A stretch of 64,000 bases of DNA from Streptosporangium becharense (GTDB lineage Bacteria > Actinomycetota > Actinomycetes > Streptosporangiales > Streptosporangiaceae): contig NZ_JACHMP010000001.1 in the NCBI RefSeq assembly GCF_014204985.1, positions 5,642,001-5,706,000 of the forward strand. The letters are read 5' to 3'. Position numbers and translations under genes: made by a program. The notes under the pieces were generated by a model. That model ran no database searches and was not told where the DNA came from. It worked only from the letters and a program-made list of their open reading frames with translations. Shown here piece after piece: positions 35,765 to 48,133 of this stretch (positions are counted from its first letter, which is position 1; the number at the start of each line of letters is the position of its first letter).

Positions 35765-36592
35765 ATGAAACCGCCGCTGCTGCTCATCGGGCAGGGCTCG
35801 AACGATGACAGCGGGTCCGCTGAATTCGGTAGGTTCGTCCATCGGCTCCGATGCCGTCTGGACCAGACGGCGGCCGACGTCTCCGGTGGCTACATCGCCA
35901 AGGCCAGACCGCGCCTCAGCGACTCCGTCGCCTCGCTGGTCGCGCGTGGCCACCACCGGATGGTGGTCCAGCCGATGAGCCTCACCGGAGACGTCTGGCT
36001 CGGTGCCGACATCCCCTCCGCGATGGCGCGCGAGCAGGACAAGCACCCCATGCTCACCTGCGACTACGGCCGTCCTCTCGGCTCCGACCCGCGCGTTCTC
36101 GCGCTGCTCGCCGAGCGCCTGGCCGACGCCGCCGCCGAGGTCGCCAGCCTCCGCCTGGTGCCCGCCGCAGCGGGGCCGCTCGACGACGAACCGGAGCGCA
36201 TCGAGATCGGTGAGACAGCCGTGGTCCTGGTCGGCGACGGCTCCACCAACCCCGAGACGAACGCCGACGTGCACCGGGTCTCCCGTCTGTTCTGGGAGAC
36301 CCACGCCCACGAGTACCTGACCGTGGAGACGGCCTTCGTCTCCCTCACCCCACCCGGCGTCCCCGGAGGCATCGAGCGCTGCCGCCGGCTCGGCGCCAGG
36401 CGCGTGATCGTGGTGCCCTACCTGCTGTTCGCCGGCGGCGTGCTCGACCGCGTCTGGGCCCAGGCCATGGCCTACGCCGCGGGCCACCCGGAGCTGGACG
36501 TCCGCTGCGCCGACGTCATCGGCGACTGCGAGGGCCTGGCCGACGTGGTCATCGACCGCTACGAGGAGGCGCTCAGCGGCATCACCTGGTGA
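35765..36592 (+). CDS. cbiX: sirohydrochlorin chelatase (CbiX/SirB type)
   Basis: A 275-residue two-repeat chelatase that inserts cobalt or iron into sirohydrochlorin. LLIGQGSNDDSGSAEF opens the first repeat and VVLVGDGSTNPETNADV the second; VVQPMSLTGDVWLGADIP and VVPYLLFAGGVLDRV carry the corresponding chelatase segments. The usual catalytic His of the first strand (HGS) is replaced here by QGS/DGS, a difference worth noting. ATG 35765 has GGAG ten bases upstream. It leads cobT and the cysG-like gene, so a cobalamin or siroheme role fits. Confidence 0.85.
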   Translation: MKPPLLLIGQGSNDDSGSAEFGRFVHRLRCRLDQTAADVSGGYIAKARPRLSDSVASLVARGHHRMVVQPMSLTGDVWLGADIPSAMAREQDKHPMLTCDYGRPLGSDPRVLALLAERLADAAAEVASLRLVPAAAGPLDDEPERIEIGETAVVLVGDGSTNPETNADVHRVSRLFWETHAHEYLTVETAFVSLTPPGVPGGIERCRRLGARRVIVVPYLLFAGGVLDRVWAQAMAYAAGHPELDVRCADVIGDCEGLADVVIDRYEEALSGITW

Positions 36593-36631
36593 CTCCGCTC
36601 GGTGACCTCGGCGTGACCTTTCACTGGAACT

Positions 36632-36653
36632 CCCCGGAACATCGTTTCCGGGG
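36632..36653 (+). promoter_or_regulatory. hairpin just upstream of cobT
   Basis: CCCCGGAA-CATCGT-TTCCGGGG, an 8-bp perfect stem ending 13 bases before the cobT ATG. It would hide the only G-rich segment before the start, so it could modulate translation, or it may be a weak terminator for cbiX. Confidence 0.4.
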
Positions 36654-36666
36654 GACACTGGATCAC

Positions 36667-37749
36667 ATGACCATCCTTGAGCAGACCATCGCGGCGATCC
36701 GTCCCGCCGACCCGGCGGCCGTCGCCGAGGCCCGCGCGCACCAGGACCGCCTCACCAAGCCGCGGGGTGCCCTCGGCGCGCTGGAGGACGTCGCGGTACG
36801 GCTGGCCGGGGCCTCCGCGGTCAGTCCTCCGCCGCTCCCGACGCCTCCGGCTCTGGCGATCTTCGCCGCCGACCACGGCGTGCACGCTCAGGGAGTGAGC
36901 CCGTGGCCGCAGGAGGTCACGTTGCAGATGGTCGGCAACTTCCTCGCCGGCGGCGCCGTCGCCAACGCCTTCGCCGCCCAGGTCGGCGCCTCGGTGACGG
37001 TCGTGGACGTCGGCGTCGCCGCCGACCTCGACCCCGCACCCGGCCTGAGGATCAGCAAGGTCGCCTACGGCACCGCCGACATGTCCCGCGGGCCCGCGAT
37101 GACCGCCGTGCAGGCGACCGCCGCGCTGGAGGCCGGCATCGCCGTGGCGCGCGACCTCGTCGACGCCGGAGCCCGCTGCCTCGTCACCGGCGACATGGGC
37201 ATCGCCAACACCACCGCCTCGGCGGCGCTGATCTGCGCGTTCACCGGGCACGACGCCGCGGTCGTGACGGGCAGGGGCACCGGTGCCGACGACGAGACCC
37301 TGGCGCGCAAGGTCGCCGTGGTCCGCGAGGCGCTGCGGGTGAACGGGCTGGCCGGTCCGCAGGGCGTCCCCTCGGGAGCGGGCGCGCTGGAGACGCTGGC
37401 CGCGGTCGGCGGCCTGGAGCACGCGGCGATCGCCGGGTTCATCCTGGGCGGGGCGGCGTGCGGGGTGCCGGTGATCCTGGACGGCGTCATCGCGGGATCG
37501 GCGGCCCTCGCGGCGGCCGCGCTGGCACCGGCCGCCGTCGACCACTGTGTGGCGGGGCACCGGTCGGCCGAACCGGGCCACGCCGTCGCGCTCGACCACC
37601 TCGGTCTGCGTCCCCTGGTCGAGCTGGAGCTCCGGCTCGGTGAGGGAACCGGCGGCCTGCTCGCCCACCCGCTGGTCTGCGCCGCGGTCAGGGCCATGCG
37701 GGAGGTGGCGACCTTCGACTCCGCCGGTGTGACCGAGAAGGAGGCCTGA
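36667..37749 (+). CDS. cobT: nicotinate-nucleotide:dimethylbenzimidazole phosphoribosyltransferase
   Basis: A 360-residue CobT that makes alpha-ribazole phosphate for the lower ligand of cobalamin. Marks: LTKPRGALGALEDVAVRLAG, ADHGVHAQGVSPWPQEVT, GDMGIANTTASAAL, GRGTGADDET and the catalytic Glu in RLGEGTGGLLA near the C-terminus. ATG 36667. Length and all motifs are normal. Confidence 0.96.
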   Translation: MTILEQTIAAIRPADPAAVAEARAHQDRLTKPRGALGALEDVAVRLAGASAVSPPPLPTPPALAIFAADHGVHAQGVSPWPQEVTLQMVGNFLAGGAVANAFAAQVGASVTVVDVGVAADLDPAPGLRISKVAYGTADMSRGPAMTAVQATAALEAGIAVARDLVDAGARCLVTGDMGIANTTASAALICAFTGHDAAVVTGRGTGADDETLARKVAVVREALRVNGLAGPQGVPSGAGALETLAAVGGLEHAAIAGFILGGAACGVPVILDGVIAGSAALAAAALAPAAVDHCVAGHRSAEPGHAVALDHLGLRPLVELELRLGEGTGGLLAHPLVCAAVRAMREVATFDSAGVTEKEA

Positions 37750-37902: not shown

Positions 37903-39135
37903 ATGTCGCCCTACCTGCTCGGTCTGCGTCTCTCCGGGCGGCGGGTGCTCGTCGTGGGCGGGGGGCGCGTCGCCCAGCGGCGGGTTCCGGCGCTGCTCGA
38001 CGCCGGTGCCCTGGTCACCATCGTCTCGACGAGTGTCACGCACGCCCTCGACGACCTCATCGCGAGCGGTCGTGTGACCTGGGAAGCCAGGCCGTACCAG
38101 GTCGGTGACGTGGACGGCGCCTGGCTGGTCCAGGCGTGCACCGACGACCGCGCCGTCAACGCCGCGGTGGCGGCCGAGGCCGAGGCCAAGCGGATCTGGT
38201 GCGTGCGCGCCGACGACAGGGACGCCTCGGCGGCCTGGACCCCCGCCAGCGGCAAGGTGGACGAGATCAGCGTCGCGGTCACCGCCGGCGGCGACCCCCG
38301 CCGGGCGGCCGGGATCAGGGACGCCGTCGTCGACGCGCTCCGCGACGGCACGGTCGACGCCCGGCGCAACCGCGCGAAGCCGGTCGGCGTCGCCCTCGTC
38401 GGTGGCGGGCCGGGTGACCCCGCGTTGATCACGGTCCGGGGCCGGCAGTTGCTCGCCCAGGCCGACGTGGTCGTGGCCGACCGCCTCGCCCCCCAGGCCC
38501 TGCTCGACGAGCTGTCCCCGGACGTGGAGCTGATCGACGCCGCCAAGATCCCCTATGGCCGCTACCTGGCCCAGGAGAAGATCAACGAGCTGCTGATCCA
38601 GCACGCGAAGCAGGGCAAGTTCGTCGTCCGGCTCAAGGGCGGCGACCCGTTCGTCTTCGGCCGGGGCGGCGAGGAGATGCTCGCCTGCGCACGCGAGGGC
38701 ATTCCGGTGATCGTGGTCCCCGGGATCACCAGCCCGGTCGCGGTACCCGCCGCGGCGAACGTGCCGGTCACCCACCGCGGGGTGAGCCAGGAATTCCATG
38801 TCGTCTCGGTGCACGTCCCGCCGGGTGACGAGAAGTCCACCGTCGACTGGCCCAACCTGGCGCGATCCGGCGGCACGCTGGTCCTCATGATGGCCGTGGA
38901 ACGGATCGGGGTGATCGCCGAAACGCTGATTCACGAGGGACGTTCGCCGGAAACTCCCGTAATGGTGGTACAGGACGGTACTCTTCCCACCCAGCGAGCT
39001 CTTTACGCCACGCTCTCCACCGTGGCGGAGCGCGTGAGCGCGGCTGGGATCCGGCCACCTGCGATCGTGATCGTCGGCGATGTCGTGAAGGTCGGCCAGG
39101 AGGTCGAGATGGTTCGAGCGGAGCGAGTACCGTGA
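37903..39135 (+). CDS. cysG: siroheme synthase-like: precorrin-2 dehydrogenase plus uroporphyrinogen-III methyltransferase
   Basis: A 410-residue fusion. N-terminal Rossmann domain (VLVVGGGRVAQRRVPALLDA) makes precorrin-2 into sirohydrochlorin; C-terminal SUMT domain (VALVGGGPGDPALITVRG, VRLKGGDPFVFGRGGEE, PGITSPVAVPAAANVPVTHR) methylates uroporphyrinogen III with SAM. Together with CbiX this covers siroheme and early cobalamin synthesis. ATG 37903. Its stop overlaps the GTG of the first GTPase gene, so the tetrapyrrole and GTPase genes share a message. Confidence 0.94.
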   Translation: MSPYLLGLRLSGRRVLVVGGGRVAQRRVPALLDAGALVTIVSTSVTHALDDLIASGRVTWEARPYQVGDVDGAWLVQACTDDRAVNAAVAAEAEAKRIWCVRADDRDASAAWTPASGKVDEISVAVTAGGDPRRAAGIRDAVVDALRDGTVDARRNRAKPVGVALVGGGPGDPALITVRGRQLLAQADVVVADRLAPQALLDELSPDVELIDAAKIPYGRYLAQEKINELLIQHAKQGKFVVRLKGGDPFVFGRGGEEMLACAREGIPVIVVPGITSPVAVPAAANVPVTHRGVSQEFHVVSVHVPPGDEKSTVDWPNLARSGGTLVLMMAVERIGVIAETLIHEGRSPETPVMVVQDGTLPTQRALYATLSTVAERVSAAGIRPPAIVIVGDVVKVGQEVEMVRAERVP

Positions 39136-42056
39136 GGTCGCCTGGTAACGGGCCCCCTCGTCCGGGGGGTCGTGACCCTCGCCCCACCGGCGGCCCGCCG
39201 GAGCCGTCCGGCGACGCGCCGCCGGGTGACGCCGAATCCGCCGGCGAACAGACGGTGACCTTCGGCGCCATCCGCCCCGGCGACGGCGCCCCCAGCGGCC
39301 GCATCCGCCCCCCGGCCGCCGCCGTCTCACGCCCCGATCCCGGTGCCCCGGCGCGGCCGGGCGCTCCGGCACCCGGCCGGTCGTCCGCACCCGGTGGGGC
39401 CGCGGGCGAGGACGCCATGGCGGCGTTCCACGCCGCCGCGGCCGCCGCCCAGGCCACCATCGCGGCCATTACCGCCGCCAAGACCGCCCCCCAGAACTCC
39501 AAGCCCGCCCCTCCGGATCCCACGCCGGCGTCCGCGGTCCCGCACGTCGCGCAGCCGCCGCCGGCGCTCAAGCCCGCCCCCAGGACACCGCCGACCGGCC
39601 CGGCGACGACCGTGCCGGCCACTGGGCCGACCACCGTGCCGGCCACTGGGCCAGCCACCGCACCAGCCACCGCGCCGCCGCTGCGCGCTGGACGGGTGTC
39701 CGATCCGGGCACCGACGTGGCCGAGAAGGCCGAAACCATCACCCGGCCCGTCACCGCCCCCGAAACCGTCATCGGGCCCGTCACCGGGAACGACGGCCCG
39801 GTGAAGGACACCCGGAGCGTGACGGCGTCGGTGGACGCCCGCCGGAAGGCGGTGCCCGGCACCGCGGACGAGGCGGACGGCGAACCCGGGGACGGAAAGG
39901 CGCCCGAAGCCCGGGGAGACGGGCCCGCCGGCGACGGGTCCGTTCAGGACGGGGAAGGCGCCGATGAGGTCGCGGAGGACGTAGCCGTTCAGAACGGCGG
40001 GTCCACGGAGAACATGGAGGCGGAGAACGCGGCCGATCGGGGCGGCGAGCCCGCTGAGGACGTTGTCGCCGAGGACACCGGACCCGCCGAGGACGAGGGA
40101 GTCCAGGACGGTGACCCCGCCGAAGACGTGGCCGAGGGTGACGGGTCCGCGAAGGACGCGGTCGCCCAGGATGACGGGCCCGCCGGGACGATGGTCGCCG
40201 AGGACGCCGGCTCGGCCGGGGACGGGGGCGTCCGGGACGGTGACCACGCCGGGAAGGTTCGGGCTGACGGGCCCGTGAAGGACGGGACGGGCGAAGGCGC
40301 ACAGCAACCCGCCGCCGGAAAAGGGACCGGCCCGGACGCGGAGGAGGGGAAGGCGCGCACCGGGCGGGTGCTCGACACGCCCCTGCCCGACTCCGCCGCC
40401 GAGGCGCTGACCACCGCGCTCGCAGCGGTGCGCGCGGGAGTCACCGACCTCCGCTTCGGCCTCGACCTGCCGGGTGCCGAGGAGGCCAGGCGGGTGCAGG
40501 GCGAGATCCTCGCCCAGCTCGACGACTATGTCGTTCCCAGGGTGCGTACGAGCGCCTCTCCCGCGCTCATCGCCATCGCGGGCTCCACCGGCGCGGGCAA
40601 GTCCACGCTCGTCAACTCCCTGGCCAAGTCCGGGGTCAGCGCGACCGGCGTACGCCGCCCGACCACCGGCACACCGATCCTGGTCTGCCACCCGGACGAC
40701 CACGAGTGGTTCGCCGAAGGCGACCTGCTCGGCGGTCTCCGGCGGCTCGGCGAACCCACCCCCGGGACGACCGGCGGTATCGTGCTCGTCTCCGCGGAGG
40801 ACATCCCTCCCGGCGTGGCCCTGCTCGACACCCCCGACATCGACTCCGTCGTCGAGGAACACCACGAGACCGCCCACCGCATGCTCGACGCGGCCGATCT
40901 GTGGATCTTCGTCACCACCGCCGCCCGGTACGCCGACGCCCCGGCCTGGCGGCTCCTCCGGCTGGCCAAGGAGCGCGGGGCCCGGCTGGCCATCGTGCTC
41001 TCCCGGGTGCCCCCGAGATCCCGAGAGGTGGTCACCAAGCACTTCGTCCGGATGCTCACCGAGTACGGCCTCGGCGAGGTCGACCGGTTCGTGATCAACG
41101 AGGGCAAGGTCACCGACGGCATGCTCCCCGACGACGAGGTCGCCGAGTTACGGCGCTGGCTGACCGAGCTGTCGGTCGACGAGCGGCGCCGCGAGCAGGC
41201 CGTGCGGGCGACCCTGGACGGCGTGCTCAACAGCTTCCGCACCCGCGTCCCCGCCCTCGCCAAGCACATGGAGATGCAGGTCGCCTTCCGGAGGGAGCTG
41301 CGCGGCGATGTGGACGGCGCCTACGCGCGCGCGCTCGCCGGGATCGAACGGAACACCGGGGACGGCTCGCTGCTCCGCGGCGAGGTGCTCGCCCGCTGGC
41401 AGGACTTCGCCGGGTCAGGCGACCTCATGCGAGCTCTGCACCTGCGCAAACCCGGACGCCTGGGGGCCAAGGCCGTCCGGCAGACGCCCGAGCGACTCAC
41501 CGCGCTGAAGGCCGCGCTGCGGGCCGGACTGGAGTCGGTCGTCGTCTCAGCCGCCCAACGGGCCGCGGAGGAGGCCGCCGCGCGCTGGCTGCAGCGTCCC
41601 GGCGCCGAGGAGCTCCTGTCGGCGGTGCCGGGTCTCGGCCACGCCTCCGACGAGATCGCGCGCAGGACCGGCCGTACCGTCGCCGCGTGGCAGGACCACA
41701 TCACCGAACTGATCCGGACCGAGGGCGTGACCAAGAGGTCCGTGGCCCGGGTGATCTCCTTCGACGCGGAGTCGCTGTCGCTGATCCTGACCATCGGGTT
41801 GCTCGGCAACGACTCCACCCCGGTGGAGGGGACCGCGGGCACCCTGCCGGGGCGGCTGGTGCACGCCCTGCTGGGCGCCGAGTCACTGCGCAACATCGGC
41901 GGCAAGGCCCGCAGCGACCTGCGCGCCCGGATCGGCCTGCTCTTCGACGAGGAGATCATGCGCTACGTCCAGGCCCTCGACAGCGCCGGCATCCCCGACG
42001 AAACCGCCGCCACCCGCCTCTACCAGGCAACGTACAACCTTGAGGTCGCCCGATGA
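39132..42056 (+). CDS. dynamin-like GTPase A with long disordered N-terminal arm (DynA-like)
   Basis: A 974-residue protein. Residues 1 to about 415 are low complexity: first Pro/Ala/Thr with repeated TVPATGPTT-type units, then an acidic EDG/DGPAED-rich stretch. The GTPase domain follows: P-loop GSTGAGKST (about 483-491), switch RRPTTGTP, G3 DTPDID, and a helical C-terminal region with no membrane segment. The fold and pairing resemble the Streptomyces DynA/DynB septation proteins; this is inference. It overlaps cysG and the next GTPase gene by four bases each. One TTA codon occurs at 41148. Confidence 0.82.
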   Translation: MRSPGNGPPRPGGRDPRPTGGPPEPSGDAPPGDAESAGEQTVTFGAIRPGDGAPSGRIRPPAAAVSRPDPGAPARPGAPAPGRSSAPGGAAGEDAMAAFHAAAAAAQATIAAITAAKTAPQNSKPAPPDPTPASAVPHVAQPPPALKPAPRTPPTGPATTVPATGPTTVPATGPATAPATAPPLRAGRVSDPGTDVAEKAETITRPVTAPETVIGPVTGNDGPVKDTRSVTASVDARRKAVPGTADEADGEPGDGKAPEARGDGPAGDGSVQDGEGADEVAEDVAVQNGGSTENMEAENAADRGGEPAEDVVAEDTGPAEDEGVQDGDPAEDVAEGDGSAKDAVAQDDGPAGTMVAEDAGSAGDGGVRDGDHAGKVRADGPVKDGTGEGAQQPAAGKGTGPDAEEGKARTGRVLDTPLPDSAAEALTTALAAVRAGVTDLRFGLDLPGAEEARRVQGEILAQLDDYVVPRVRTSASPALIAIAGSTGAGKSTLVNSLAKSGVSATGVRRPTTGTPILVCHPDDHEWFAEGDLLGGLRRLGEPTPGTTGGIVLVSAEDIPPGVALLDTPDIDSVVEEHHETAHRMLDAADLWIFVTTAARYADAPAWRLLRLAKERGARLAIVLSRVPPRSREVVTKHFVRMLTEYGLGEVDRFVINEGKVTDGMLPDDEVAELRRWLTELSVDERRREQAVRATLDGVLNSFRTRVPALAKHMEMQVAFRRELRGDVDGAYARALAGIERNTGDGSLLRGEVLARWQDFAGSGDLMRALHLRKPGRLGAKAVRQTPERLTALKAALRAGLESVVVSAAQRAAEEAAARWLQRPGAEELLSAVPGLGHASDEIARRTGRTVAAWQDHITELIRTEGVTKRSVARVISFDAESLSLILTIGLLGNDSTPVEGTAGTLPGRLVHALLGAESLRNIGGKARSDLRARIGLLFDEEIMRYVQALDSAGIPDETAATRLYQATYNLEVAR

Positions 42057-43690
42057 GTGTTGGCACCACCCAGACGCGCCAGGGTCTCGGCAGCCGGCTC
42101 GCCGCGCTCGCCCGGATCGTGGAGCTGGGGCCGGGCAGGGTCGATCCCAAACTCCTCGCCGAGGCGGGCAGGCTGCTGCTGCGCGCCGGTGACAGGCTCA
42201 AGCTCTCCTCCGAGCACACCGTGGTGGCCCTCGCCGGGGGCACGGGCAGCGGAAAGTCGACGCTGTTCAACTCGGTCTCCGGCCTGGAGCTGTCGCCGAC
42301 GGGTGTGCGACGCCCGACCACCGCCCGCACCCACGCCTGCGTCTGGGGGCTGGAGGGTGCGGGCCCGCTGCTCGACTGGCTGAAGATCCAGTGGCGGCAC
42401 CGTTTCGCCCGGGCCAGCGCTCTGGACCGGGGGGAGAGCCAGTTGCACGGACTGATCCTCCTCGACCTGCCCGACCACGACTCCATCCGGGCGCTGACCG
42501 ACAACGAGGCCGATCGGCTCATCCAGGTCGCCGACCTCGTCGTGTGGGTGCTCGACCCGCAGAAGTACGCCGACGCCTCCACGCACCGCCGTTACGTGAC
42601 CGACCTGGCGGGTCACGAGGCGGTGACGGTCTTCGTGCTCAACCAGGCGGACCGGCTCGAACCGGAGGAACTGGCCGAGTGCATGGCCGACCTCGACGGT
42701 CTGCTGCGCCGCGAGGGTGTCGAGAACCCCGTCATCGTCGCCACCTCGGCGACCACCGGCCAGGGCGTCGACAACCTCAAGGCGGTCATCGCCGAGGCCG
42801 TGACCAACCGCAGGGCCGCGGTCCAGCGACTGGAGGCCGACCTCGACCGGCTGACCCGCCGGCTGGTGAAGGCCATGCCCGTGCAGGACGCTCCCGTCCC
42901 GCCCTCCTCCATCGACGACGCCCGCCGGATCGGTCTGGCCGACGCCCTGTGCGACGCGGTCGGCGTGCCCGCGATCGGCGAGGCGATGGAGAACGTCTAC
43001 GCCGCGCGATCCGCCGAGTGGGTCGGCTGGCCCTACCCCCGCTGGATCGCCGGGCTCCGCCCCGATCCGTTGAAGAGCCTGCGCCTGGGTGACCTGAGGG
43101 ACGAGATCCGGGGGATCGGCGGATCGGTCAGCGCGCAGCCGGCCGAGGTGGACGCCGCGATCCAAGCGCTCGCCGACGGTCTGACCGTCGGCATGCACGA
43201 GGCGTGGCGGAACGGTGTCCGTGAGGCCGCGCGGTCGCGTTCGGCGCAGCTGCCCGAGGCGCTCGCCGAGGAGCTGACCGAGGTCGCCCCGCGCCTCGAC
43301 CGGGTTCCCGGCTGGTGGCGGGCGCTCCTCGTCTGGCAGTACCTCCTGGTCGGGCTCTTCGTGGCGGGTCTCGCCTGGATCGGCACCGCACTCGTCTACG
43401 GCGTGTTCGGCGCGGCGAACCCGCCGGCCGCCCTCGGGCTGTTCGCCGACGCCGCGTCCCTGCCGTGGGTGGGGCTGATGGTGCTGTCGGTCCTCGGGCT
43501 CGGCGCGCTCACCGCCGTGGCGAGCCGCAACTTCATCGTGCTCGGCGCGGGGACGGAGCGGGAGGGCATGGAGCGGGAGATGCGCCGCAGGGTCGCGGGG
43601 ATCGCCCAGAGCATGGTCATCGAACCGGTGGAGCGCGAGCTGGCCCGCTATAACGAGTTCTACTCGGCGGTGCGCGCCGTCCACGACTGA
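42053..43690 (+). CDS. dynamin-like GTPase B, membrane anchored (DynB-like)
   Basis: A 545-residue GTPase: P-loop GGTGSGKSTLFN (about 63-74), RRPTTARTHACV switch, G3 LDLPDHDS, G4 LNQADRL, then two membrane segments (about 424-450 and 468-492) separated by a short outside loop, and a basic C-terminus. A soluble GTPase paired with a two-segment membrane GTPase matches the Streptomyces DynA/DynB organisation, which stabilises FtsZ rings in sporulation septa. Translationally coupled to GTPase A. Confidence 0.83.
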   Translation: MSVGTTQTRQGLGSRLAALARIVELGPGRVDPKLLAEAGRLLLRAGDRLKLSSEHTVVALAGGTGSGKSTLFNSVSGLELSPTGVRRPTTARTHACVWGLEGAGPLLDWLKIQWRHRFARASALDRGESQLHGLILLDLPDHDSIRALTDNEADRLIQVADLVVWVLDPQKYADASTHRRYVTDLAGHEAVTVFVLNQADRLEPEELAECMADLDGLLRREGVENPVIVATSATTGQGVDNLKAVIAEAVTNRRAAVQRLEADLDRLTRRLVKAMPVQDAPVPPSSIDDARRIGLADALCDAVGVPAIGEAMENVYAARSAEWVGWPYPRWIAGLRPDPLKSLRLGDLRDEIRGIGGSVSAQPAEVDAAIQALADGLTVGMHEAWRNGVREAARSRSAQLPEALAEELTEVAPRLDRVPGWWRALLVWQYLLVGLFVAGLAWIGTALVYGVFGAANPPAALGLFADAASLPWVGLMVLSVLGLGALTAVASRNFIVLGAGTEREGMEREMRRRVAGIAQSMVIEPVERELARYNEFYSAVRAVHD

Positions 43691-43827
43691 TCGGCCCGGT
43701 TGTCCACAGGCCGTGCTCTCGGCCGACGGTCATCCACAGAACGCGGTTCTGCTCCTCGTGTGGGGGGCAGGACGGGCCATCGTGTCTTCCAAGCCGCCGG
43801 CAGCCCGCCGGCTCCATGGGAGGCACG

Positions 43828-44619
43828 ATGAACGACATCCACGTCACGCTGACCGGTAACATCGCGGCTCCGCCGCGCCAGCACACCTTCCCCGACGGTT
43901 CCCGGGTCACCTCGCTCAAAGTGGCCTCGACCAGCCGATACTTCGACCGTGAGAACCAGCAGTGGCGCAACGGCGAGACCACCTACTTCGGCGTCCGCTG
44001 TTTCCGGGGCCTCGCCGACAACGTCGTCCGGTCGGTTCAGCTGGGCCAGCCGATCGTCGTCCAGGGCAGGCTGAGAATCCGTGAGTTCGTCCACGAAGGC
44101 GAGCGCCGTTTCATGCCTGAGGTGGAGGCCAACGCGCTCGGCCACGACCTGCGCTGGGGCGTCGGCAGTTTCGACAAGCCCCAGCGTGGCGGGACGGCCC
44201 CGCTGCTGGGGCGCGACGAGCGGATCGAGCTCGACCGCGAGACGTCCGACTGGGCCATGAGCGGCGGTGTCCCCGTTCCGGAGGACGCACCGGGTTCGCC
44301 GGCCACTCCGGGTTCTCCGGCGACTGTCGCCGCCGGCTTCGCTGACGGGCCGTCCACGGCCGGTGCGCGGGCATCGCGCGCGGAGGCGGCCGGGGCCGGG
44401 GCCGCCACCGCGGAATCGGTCGCCGCCGGAACCGCCGCAGGTGAGGTGGCCGCGGGCTCGGCGGCAGACGTTCCGCAGCCGCAGGACATCGCGGCAGCCA
44501 GGCGGAGAGCACCGAGGGGTGCGGCGGCCAGACGCTCCGCCACGGAACAGGAGAAGAACGAGGTCGTCTCCGATCCGGAGGAGACACCCTGGCCCTTCGA
44601 AGAGCGCCTGGCGGCCTGA
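43828..44619 (+). CDS. ssb: single-stranded DNA-binding protein (SsbB-like second copy)
   Basis: A 263-residue protein with an N-terminal OB fold (residues 2-115: VTLTGNIAAPPRQHTF, FGVRCFRGLADNVVRSVQLGQPIVVQGRL) and a long Ala/Gly/Ser-rich C-terminal region. It ends PWPFEERLAA and lacks the acidic DDDIPF-type tip of the housekeeping SSB, so it is probably a developmental or auxiliary paralogue such as SsbB, known in Streptomyces for chromosome segregation in spores. ATG 43828 after GGGAGG. It follows the GTPase pair on the same strand after 137 bases. Confidence 0.85.
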   Translation: MNDIHVTLTGNIAAPPRQHTFPDGSRVTSLKVASTSRYFDRENQQWRNGETTYFGVRCFRGLADNVVRSVQLGQPIVVQGRLRIREFVHEGERRFMPEVEANALGHDLRWGVGSFDKPQRGGTAPLLGRDERIELDRETSDWAMSGGVPVPEDAPGSPATPGSPATVAAGFADGPSTAGARASRAEAAGAGAATAESVAAGTAAGEVAAGSAADVPQPQDIAAARRRAPRGAAARRSATEQEKNEVVSDPEETPWPFEERLAA

Positions 44620-45143
44620 CCCGTCCTCGCGGCCGGGGCGTCCCGGCAGCCCGGCGGGGAGGGCGGGAAGAACACGCGTCCCCCGGCGGAAACATTCCGC
44701 CGGGGGCTGGAGCGCGCGGTTTCGGACTGAACGACGTGGCTGGGAGCCGGACGGACGCCCGGCCGGGAGCCGTCAGACGGGCGATGGCTCATGGGCCTGC
44801 GACAGGGCGGTCATGGTCTCGTGACAGGGCAGGGGGTGAGGGGCATCGGCCGGACGTGGTCGGTGCCTCGCCAGGTGAACGCGGTAGCGCCGGAATACCG
44901 GCCGATGGTCTTGCCCGTGTCAGATGCCGAGACACCCGTCAGGTGCCGAGACACCTTCAGGTCCAGGTCACACCCCGCAGCATGGCTGCTCCTTCCCCAC
45001 ACGGCCCGCTCGCGGGCGAGCGGTTTGCAGATCGTGGGTCACCCGACAAGCCGACCCACTCCGCCCAAGGTAGCGGTTCCCATCGCGCAGCGCACACTCC
45101 GCAACTATTGTGTTACACATCGTTAGTCGGAGAGGGGGACGAC
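44620..45143. other. 524-base intergenic region before the diguanylate cyclase gene
   Basis: No gene is supported. A direct repeat of TGCCGAGACACC occurs at about 44928 and 44943. Near 45110-45122 TTGTGTTACACA contains the inverted repeat TGTG-TTA-CACA within an AT-rich patch, a likely promoter/operator for the next gene. Confidence 0.45.
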
Positions 45144-46442
45144 ATGGCGGCTTCCAGTCATACCTCGGTCAAGTCACGTGACGGCGTGACGTCCTTGGCC
45201 GACCGGTGGCCCTTGCTGGCGCAACGCCGCCCGCTGATTGGCTACCTCTGCGGAATCGTGATGTTGGATACCGCCGCGATCGTGTTCTTCGCGGTCACCG
45301 GTGATTTCCGATGGTCCGACGTGCTCACGTTCGCGGCGCTGATGGCGTGTGGAGCAGTCTGCATCGAGGCGACCCGGCGGCTGGGCATGCCCGCAGGCGT
45401 CTCCCGTGACCTGCTCTCCGCGTGGTGGTTGCCGGCCGCACTGCTCCTGCCACCGCTGTACGCGCTCCTCGCGCCCATCCCCTTTCAGTTCCTGCTGCAG
45501 AAACGGGTGCGCGCGACGGTCGTCTACCGGCGGGTCTTCAGCTCGGCCGCGATCGGCCTGGCCGGAGGTGCGGCCTCGTTGCTCTTCCACGGCACCGTCG
45601 GTGATCCGAACGCGCTGAGCCGGGGTGACGGGGTGTCGATCCTGATGGCCGTCGGCTGCGCCGTGCTGTTCACCGTGATCAACACCGCGCTGATCGCCAT
45701 CGCCGCGCACACCGCCGATCCCGACAGCCGCTGGCGCGAGGTCCTGTGGGACCGCGAGAGCCTCCTCCTCGACGTCGTCGAGCTCTGCCTGGGCGTCATC
45801 GTCTCCATCATCGGCGGGATCAACCTGGCGCTCCTGCTGCTGGCGCTGCCGCCCGTGGTGCTGCTCCAGCGCACCCTGCTTCACGCCCAGCTGCAGGCGG
45901 CGGCCCGCACCGACCTCAAGACCGGGCTGCTCAACGCCGCGGCCTGGCAGCGTGAGGCCGACACCGAGATCGTCAGAGCCCGCCGCACCGGCGAGACGCT
46001 CGCCCTGCTGATCGTCGACATCGACCACTTCAAACGGGTCAACGACACCTACGGCCACCTGGTCGGCGACCAGGTCCTCATCGGGGTGGCCGACACCATC
46101 CGCAACCAGCTTCGCGACTACGACGTCGTGGGCCGCTTCGGCGGCGAGGAGTTCGTCGTCCTGCTGCCCAGAGCCGACGTGACCGAGGCCCGCCGGGTCG
46201 CCGAGCGGCTGCGCTTCCGGGTGGGCCGGATGGCGGTCCCCGCCGACGACAACATGATCACCGTGACCATCTCGGTCGGTGTGGCGATCATGAGCGTGCA
46301 CGGTGACGATCTGATCGAGTTGCTCGCCGCGGCCGACCTGGCCCTGTATCGGGCCAAGGAGCTGGGTCGCGACCAGATCTGCCTGCCCGCCGCCACGGTT
46401 CCCCCGGCCCGGCGGCCGGGTTCCGAGACCGCCCCTAGCTGA
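45144..46442 (+). CDS. membrane diguanylate cyclase (GGDEF)
   Basis: A 432-residue protein with a six-to-seven-segment membrane N-terminus (residues 30-260) and a C-terminal GGDEF domain. The active site reads GRFGGEEFVVLLP (about 330-342), an active GGEEF variant, and RDYD five residues before it is a correct RxxD product-inhibition site; LIVDIDHFKRVNDTYGHLVGD gives the metal/nucleotide residues. So it should make cyclic di-GMP, a sporulation-control signal in Streptomyces, in response to a membrane stimulus. ATG 45144 with GAGGGGG upstream. Confidence 0.93.
   Translation: MAASSHTSVKSRDGVTSLADRWPLLAQRRPLIGYLCGIVMLDTAAIVFFAVTGDFRWSDVLTFAALMACGAVCIEATRRLGMPAGVSRDLLSAWWLPAALLLPPLYALLAPIPFQFLLQKRVRATVVYRRVFSSAAIGLAGGAASLLFHGTVGDPNALSRGDGVSILMAVGCAVLFTVINTALIAIAAHTADPDSRWREVLWDRESLLLDVVELCLGVIVSIIGGINLALLLLALPPVVLLQRTLLHAQLQAAARTDLKTGLLNAAAWQREADTEIVRARRTGETLALLIVDIDHFKRVNDTYGHLVGDQVLIGVADTIRNQLRDYDVVGRFGGEEFVVLLPRADVTEARRVAERLRFRVGRMAVPADDNMITVTISVGVAIMSVHGDDLIELLAAADLALYRAKELGRDQICLPAATVPPARRPGSETAPS

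Positions 46443-46468: not shown

Positions 46469-48123
<1,655 letters not shown>

Positions 48124-48133
<10 letters not shown>

Follow-up and report, generated by a model that had tools for sequence, protein, structure and literature searches.

The dynAB-ssbB neighbourhood of Streptosporangium becharense: a tandem TCCACA element upstream of ssbB and a possible transformation-like regulon

Background

The closest described counterparts of the genes considered here are in Streptomyces. Streptomyces venezuelae DynA (vnz_12110) and DynB (vnz_12105) are an adjacent pair of dynamin-like proteins in which DynB has two membrane segments; they enter our analysis by description (PMC6428758, PMC8748795), the sequences compared being other Streptomycetaceae dynAB. 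The dynAB genes are a target of BldC in S. venezuelae (PMC6428758), and a conserved antisense RNA has been tabulated opposite an ATP-binding protein gene, sco2685 / sven2472 (PMC3765725), that is probably dynA to judge from the locus numbers. This report concerns 64,000 nucleotides of the Streptosporangium becharense genome (NZ_JACHMP010000001.1, positions 5,642,001 to 5,706,000; called the window below, and numbered from its first letter). The window contains a cysG-type gene, two dynamin-like GTPase genes (dynA and dynB) and a gene for a single-stranded-DNA-binding protein (SSB) paralogue, ssbB; our main subject is a pair of TCCACA-containing boxes upstream of ssbB.

In Bacillus subtilis the ComK regulon groups ssbB, dprA, comEA-comEC, recA and pseudopilus genes; it differs from what is described below in its box and its regulator, and it belongs to a low-GC gram-positive. 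For Actinobacteria the molecular basis of competence has been termed little known (PMC8467076). Transformation in Micrococcus luteus, with comEA-comEC and a Flp pilus, involves part of the gene set discussed here (ComEA, ComEC, DprA, Flp pilus) (PMC4322843, PMC8467076). It differs in that the regulator discussed is an HTH_17 excisionase-family protein (PMC8467076); the term ssb is absent from the main texts of both papers, and CCACA from that of PMC8467076. No box of the present kind was found in the portions of the actinobacterial competence literature consulted, although this search was poorly targeted and such a box may be in print.

Results and discussion

A tandem element upstream of ssbB

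The interpretation that we favour, with a probability of roughly 0.6, is that two modules adjoin here: a coupled cysG-dynA-dynB unit, and a separately controlled ssbB that is part of a natural-transformation-like regulon. Between dynB and ssbB there is a direct repeat of TTGTCCACA-type boxes; TCCACA occurs as a tandem nowhere else in the window, where 0.03 such matches would be expected. The element, the gene and its downstream neighbour are:

43700 to 43739, plus strand: tandem direct boxes TTGTCCACAG (43700-43709) and TCATCCACAG (43730-43739), 30-bp spacing, the ssbB upstream element
43828 to 44619, plus strand: ssbB, SSB paralogue, an oligonucleotide-binding (OB) fold followed by a long Ala-rich tail without acidic tip (Pfam SSB, 3.6e-17)
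46469 to 48133, plus strand: ettA, ABC-F translation factor (NCBIfam NF008775, 929 bits, cut-off 599), conserved downstream neighbour of ssbB

Gene order was compared in 60 stretches from further genomes, a second dynamin-like locus of this genome and 70 named loci. An ssb gene lies within 2.5 kb downstream of dynB on the same strand in 84 of 132 dynB loci, so that the dynAB-ssb synteny, whose absence would have told against the initial annotation, is real; 39 loci are without it and nine have too little sequence. The gene that follows a dynB-linked ssb is usually ettA. Among the 123 loci with enough sequence, the 39 in which dynAB is unlinked from ssb include all six from Micrococcaceae. Five loci (L039, L042, L045, L046 and L047) have a single dynAB pair and no ssb at this place, and keep a diguanylate cyclase gene and ettA. 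In Promicromonospora sukumoe (L114) one ssb-ettA is flanked by two dynAB pairs within a span of about 12 kb.

A first scan, with a DnaA-box pattern, gave 89 matches in the 84 dynB-ssb gaps, a density of 3.46 per kb as opposed to 0.086 per kb over the loci. In counts of all 7-mers, which do not use that pattern, TCCACAG ranks with the most enriched, being present in 64 of 88 ssbB upstream regions, as does GTCCACA, with 62 of 88. When 200 bp upstream were scanned and a tandem was defined by a spacing of 16-32 bp, TCCACA was found in the sense orientation before ssbB in 76 of the 88 regions, in the antisense orientation in four, and as a tandem in 51. By group (family names and family codes, which may overlap) the box is present in 20 of 23 and the tandem in 14 of 23. 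Spacings are restricted, 51 of 53 counted being 17-19 or 27-31 bp. Other likely genes of the same loci served as a control and had TCCACA in 43 of 956 cases, three of them tandem; 2.75% of random 200-bp windows had it, and 0.2% had two or more. The box precedes ettA in 2 of 84 cases, cysG in 1 of 14 and dynA in 7 of 125, with no tandem before dynA. Many of the loci are related, and no weight is placed on Fisher tests, which assume independence.

Does the element go with ssb or with dynAB? Where dynB and ssb are 1-2 kb apart, the boxes remain about 95-145 bp from the SSB match. No box occurs in the 300 bp after unlinked dynB (0 of 28, from the 39 unlinked loci) or in the 500 bp after dynB in the five loci listed above that lack ssb. 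A second set comprised 30 genomes, mostly picked for the absence of dynAB (five do have it). In 16 of these, ssb lies by ettA without adjacent dynAB, and the box is present in 15, as a tandem in eight; among the 15, G002 has dynAB elsewhere and G003 has a marginal B match, and the single miss had 18 bp of upstream DNA. The retention of the element at ssb with or without dynAB, and its absence after unlinked dynB, argue that it belongs to ssb and not to dynAB.

The initial annotation had also placed cysG, both GTPases and ssb on one transcript. In the 84 linked loci the SSB match begins 52-2096 bp past the end of dynB (median 191), in no case within 50 bp. This lack of coupling, together with the upstream element of ssb itself, does not support a shared transcript that includes ssb, and we have rejected the idea for that gene. 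Scans for sigma-70 promoters and terminators gave nothing exceeding shuffled controls. The adjacency of dynAB and ssbB is most likely an old synteny that carries no sign of co-regulation. We propose that ssbB forms its own transcription unit, with a promoter marked by the two direct boxes about 90-140 bp upstream of its start.

The same box before other genes

Tandem sites in this genome include those before yraN and ssd-tad; comM/YifB and dprA lie behind yraN, and TadA- and TadB-type genes behind ssd. The box precedes yraN in 29 of 30 genomes, with two or more copies in 17 and near-constant positions of -71 and -98 to -102 in many. For ssd it is found in 28 of 30 (tandem in 21) and for recA, the least regular of the set, in 19 of 30 (tandem in six). 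If these genes make up a transformation set, comEA should carry the box too, and this was predicted beforehand. Of 20 longer stretches, 17 kept at least 150 bp upstream of comEA (three were dropped); 13 of the 17 have the box, six as a tandem, and the nearest box is at -56 to -60 in eight of the 13. In G051, a genome of family f17 and perhaps a Micromonospora, there are 31 tandem sites against five for the control, 25 of the 31 exactly 29 bp apart, and they include ssbB, yraN, ssd, recA and nrdR. Because the same element precedes comEA, ssd (the first gene of a tad/Flp-pilus cluster), yraN and, less regularly, recA, SsbB most likely serves as the competence-type SSB within a natural-transformation-like regulon. 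The tandem boxes would be bound by a factor, either DnaA or a dedicated regulator, that activates the regulon genes together, and SsbB, working with DprA and RecA, would coat single strands that are incoming or undergoing recombination.

For inspection of neighbours, 30 of 31 tandem sites were retrieved in G051 and 10 of 17 in G107. In two f17 genomes, tandem TCCACA sites are immediately followed by genes for homologous proteins (by blastp; L251, L257, L261, L273, L283 and L284); among those scanned, an AbiEi-like Pfam domain is found in L251 and L261, and also in L250, and is just below the cut-off in L257. There is also a third, short SSB-fold protein (L169:1282-1785; L287), whose gene has one box here, 115 bp upstream, and tandem boxes in G107.

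The SsbB protein

The SSB encoded downstream of GTPase B lacks the acidic tip, as had been claimed; its tail ends ...PEETPWPFEERLAA, whereas the genomic SsbA (L167) bears a tip and ends ...FSDEPPF. An acidic-tip pattern was found in two of 88 SSB rows, one of them the second SSB of L148, away from dynB; two others are truncated at contig ends. The best match to a solved structure is 'SSB 1' (4dam, 86.4 bits; 'SSB 2', 3eiv, scores 57.8). We take 4dam, catalogued as SSB protein 1, to be S. coelicolor SsbB. The protein may thus be nearer SsbB than SsbA, but the lead over other SSB chains (80-82 bits, presumably mycobacterial) is small. The SSB adjoining dynB in an f16 genome matches 4dam at 206.7 bits, and tails in the block's relatives are tip-less. 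The S. becharense protein differs from S. coelicolor SsbB in its longer, Ala-rich tail with a Streptosporangiaceae-type C-terminus. As to its limits, the open reading frame (ORF) ends at 44619 as first described, but instead of 43816 the start is most likely ATG 43828, which is preceded by GGGAGG (43818-43823) and also fits the SsbB homologues.

The cysG-dynA-dynB unit

The other module consists of three genes:

37903 to 39135, plus strand: cysG/cobA-type uroporphyrinogen-III methyltransferase with a siroheme-synthase N-terminal domain (Pfam TP_methylase and NAD_binding_7)
39132 to 42056, plus strand: dynA-type dynamin-like GTPase (GTPase A), 974 aa, start GTG (Pfam Dynamin_N, 1.1e-9)
42053 to 43690, plus strand: dynB-type dynamin-like GTPase (GTPase B), 545 aa, start ATG (Pfam Dynamin_N, 1.2e-6)

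The cysG product exceeds the NCBIfam cut-offs for TIGR01469 (277.6 bits, cut-off 185) and TIGR01470 (77.9 bits, cut-off 62.3). The ORFs and the sequence agree with the four-base overlaps that had been noted, GTGA between cysG and dynA (39132-39135) and ATGA between dynA and dynB (42053-42056). All 11 window-type or Actinomadura loci examined have a GTG in the dynA frame that overlaps the cysG stop exactly, the start overlap being fixed across dynA lengths of 687 to 1174 codons, but in four single-pair loci the first dynA start lies 26-76 bp past the cysG stop, with no overlap. From this distribution, cysG-dynA coupling appears as a conserved, lineage-restricted trait, and the three genes would form a translationally coupled unit. 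A search of 28000-49000 found no RNA family, including the cobalamin riboswitch, at the Rfam threshold.

The dynA product begins with a low-complexity extension of about 415 aa (39132-40376), rich in Ala, Gly and Pro and then in Asp and Glu, followed by the GTPase and helical core (40377-42053). The G+C content by codon position in the first ~415 residues (0.81/0.66/0.86) is coding-like.

Neither GTPase reaches an NCBIfam cut-off, the Pfam Dynamin_N match is weak, and a sequence search of GTPase B against the PDB gave nothing useful. Structures were modelled with AlphaFold2, the mean predicted local distance difference test score being 89.5 for GTPase B and 89.1 for the GTPase A core. For both models Foldseek ranks BDLP and IniA, two bacterial dynamins, first among PDB structures, followed closely by 5owv/5oxf (a bacterial dynamin pair) and mitofusin/Fzo1. 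E-values for the named dynamins are about 1e-9 to 2e-7. Since the TM-scores, normalized to query length, reach no more than 0.24-0.28 to BDLP and are thus low, the assignment rests on the E-values and the order of the matches; on this basis, both GTPases have the dynamin fold. The described contrast between a soluble GTPase A and a GTPase B with two membrane segments agrees with hydropathy. In a 19-aa Kyte-Doolittle window GTPase B has two strong C-terminal segments (peaks of 2.12 at 431 and 2.08 at 473) and model helices at 420-452 and 467-544, whereas the best peak of GTPase A, 1.6, is not comparable. By analogy with Streptomyces, DynA and DynB would be a soluble and membrane-anchored heteropair that stabilizes division septa or remodels membrane. 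An alignment of 14 B proteins shows two stretches with little or no variation, DLPDxDS and W(V)xDPxKYAD.

Are these GTPases the lineage's DynA and DynB? At E<=0.001 a B-like match is present in 99 of the 100 genomes at family level and in 74 of the 148 at class level, a few of the latter being marginal. One clade unites the pair in the window with those of Actinomadura and with the single pairs found in related genera. Four overlapping trees separate this clade plus Streptomycetaceae dynAB from the rest, with SH-like approximate likelihood ratio test (SH-aLRT) values of 92, 96 and 98 in three and ultrafast bootstrap/SH-aLRT values of 100/99 in the fourth. The first of these left out 2 of 62 rows, the second 13 of the 70 named loci (partial or divergent) and the third a further 19 of 72, and the fourth used 34 rows; all are unrooted, and both stems are long (0.5 and 0.87). 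Named Streptomyces loci likewise have a dynAB pair ahead of an SsbB gene and fall on the same side of the main split. The window genes differ in the overlap of dynA with cysG and the long low-complexity N-terminus of its product, and the window B protein is 36-39% identical to seven aligned Streptomycetaceae B proteins.

The genome has a second dynamin-like pair (G000:C1:4407028-4410797; L006:12029-15798) at a distance of about 1.27 Mb, and neither ssb nor cysG lies close to it. It groups apart from the window pair in the trees. Of 44 family genomes that have a window-type B (at least 63% identical), 39 show a second B-like match; among the matches listed, none was seen in the other 55 family genomes with a B. 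A recent duplication inside Streptosporangiales as the origin of the second pair is weakly disfavoured by an approximately unbiased test (p 0.04). The window pair precedes ssb-ettA, as actinomycete dynAB does; the second pair is without that position in all 11 cases fetched.

Neighbouring genes

The block as first described has all its genes, but it also runs on into a diguanylate cyclase gene and ettA. Two further features are:

36589 to 37749, plus strand: cobT-like gene (DBI_PRT phosphoribosyltransferase; Pfam 4.6e-123), upstream neighbour
45144 to 46442, plus strand: GGDEF (diguanylate cyclase) gene between ssb and ettA (Pfam 7.4e-44 on ORF 44736-46442; start re-called from the sequence)

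A CbiX-like gene also lies upstream, and cobT is upstream of cysG in the related f1 and Actinomadura loci as well. In window-type loci of f1, Streptosporangiaceae and Actinomadura, too, a GGDEF gene separates dynB/ssb from ettA. The product of the gene in the window carries RDYD followed by GGEEF, motifs that we assume to mark an active diguanylate cyclase with an inhibitory site.

Alternative explanations

A number of observations weigh against the two-module interpretation. As regards dynAB, BLAST with 33 Streptomycetaceae/f16 loci gives the second pair a higher raw score than the window pair in 23 of 33 cases for B and in 18 of 32 for A. Many other families also score better against the second pair, and long branches may join the window pair and Streptomycetaceae artefactually. 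Position and trees nevertheless make the window GTPases the likely DynA/DynB counterparts of this lineage, despite the leaning of BLAST; their resemblance to DynA/DynB, as initially proposed, is supported by dynamin folds, position and tree placement, with raw BLAST slightly favouring the other pair. Tree placement and the dynAB-ssb synteny put the GTPases neither outside the DynA/DynB clade nor away from ssb.

As regards the regulon, 12 of the 88 ssbB regions lack the box, recA of this genome has none and comEA has a single one. A first look at comEC loci seemed negative (pairs in 3 of 30), the stretches being mostly too short to reach the comEA promoter. The genes yraN and ssd were chosen from genome match lists, and recA from one genome's list, after the matches had been seen; the presence of comM and dprA behind yraN and of TadA/TadB behind ssd is established for this genome alone. 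Genome-wide the bare tandem pattern is weakly specific, with 19 matches here against 10 for the reversed control, and five of eight other genomes show little or no excess (G141, 17 against 19; G107, 17 against 14; G082, 16 against 14; G022, 2 against 5; G026, 4 against 3). Some f17-genome sites precede AbiEi-like, Uma2, DUF4192 or NrdR genes or fall inside called frames, so that the set may be wider or partly due to chance. SsbB is reported to act in sporulation segregation in Streptomyces, and Streptosporangiaceae are not known to be transformable.

Could the boxes simply be ordinary DnaA boxes, tying ssbB together with recA, nrdR and yraN-comM-dprA to replication initiation, with competence uninvolved? 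They fit the streptomycete DnaA-box consensus, and this genome has one tandem in the dnaA-dnaN gap and another about 2.3 kb from it, beyond dnaA; hence the factor could be DnaA, and the common theme replication. The recA and NrdR sites of the f17 genome would suit this too. Scattered initiator sites would not be expected to share one strand, restricted spacings and a near-constant distance to the start codon as these boxes do, and replication alone hardly explains their enrichment before ssd-tad and comEA. We regard this explanation as a real possibility, though one that we would bet against. Doubtful also, and slightly more so, is a neutral ancestral neighbourhood in which dynAB, ssbB and ettA are retained neighbours without any functional tie. 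The unlinked loci, the second pair here and the occurrence of ssb-ettA without dynAB all agree with it, but gene order has been kept across many families for longer than drift readily allows, and the cysG-dynA overlap is exact wherever the window-type arrangement was examined. This alternative speaks only to the link between dynAB and ssb, and ssbB could belong to the regulon even if it held.

Improbable, in our judgement, is the idea closest to the initial annotation, of a single transcript serving one sporulation programme in which DynA/DynB stabilize septa and SsbB handles chromosome segregation. It can draw on the frequent dynB-ssb linkage, the SsbB-like character of the window SSB and the listing of dynAB as a BldC target in S. 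venezuelae (PMC6428758). It is opposed by the uncoupling of ssb from dynB in all 84 linked loci, by the conserved element of ssb itself, and by the persistence of ssb-ettA with that element where dynAB is absent. Moreover, several of the bearers, such as Nocardioides, are not known to sporulate.

Conclusion

The coding content, the synteny, and the element with its distribution are direct observations, as are the folds at the level of the models; gene function, taken from orthology, and the factor, the direction of control, expression and DNA uptake are parts of the proposal. On the proposal of two adjoining modules, the cysG-dynA overlap would be a separate oddity that ties dynamin translation to a siroheme enzyme. 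A broader version, which we hold tentatively and at somewhat less than even odds, is that actinomycetes share a transformation regulon with tandem TTGTCCACA boxes (about 18 or 29 bp apart) before comEA-comEC, ssd-tad, yraN-comM-dprA, ssbB and often recA, with SsbB as its competence SSB, and that filamentous genera such as Streptomyces and Streptosporangiaceae retain a DNA-uptake programme that is silent but inducible. Such a regulon would explain why ssbB retains its upstream element whether or not dynAB is adjacent, and it would recast actinomycete SsbB, so far linked to sporulation segregation. A box before transformation genes in many families would offer a direct handle on the actinobacterial competence factor and on DNA uptake.

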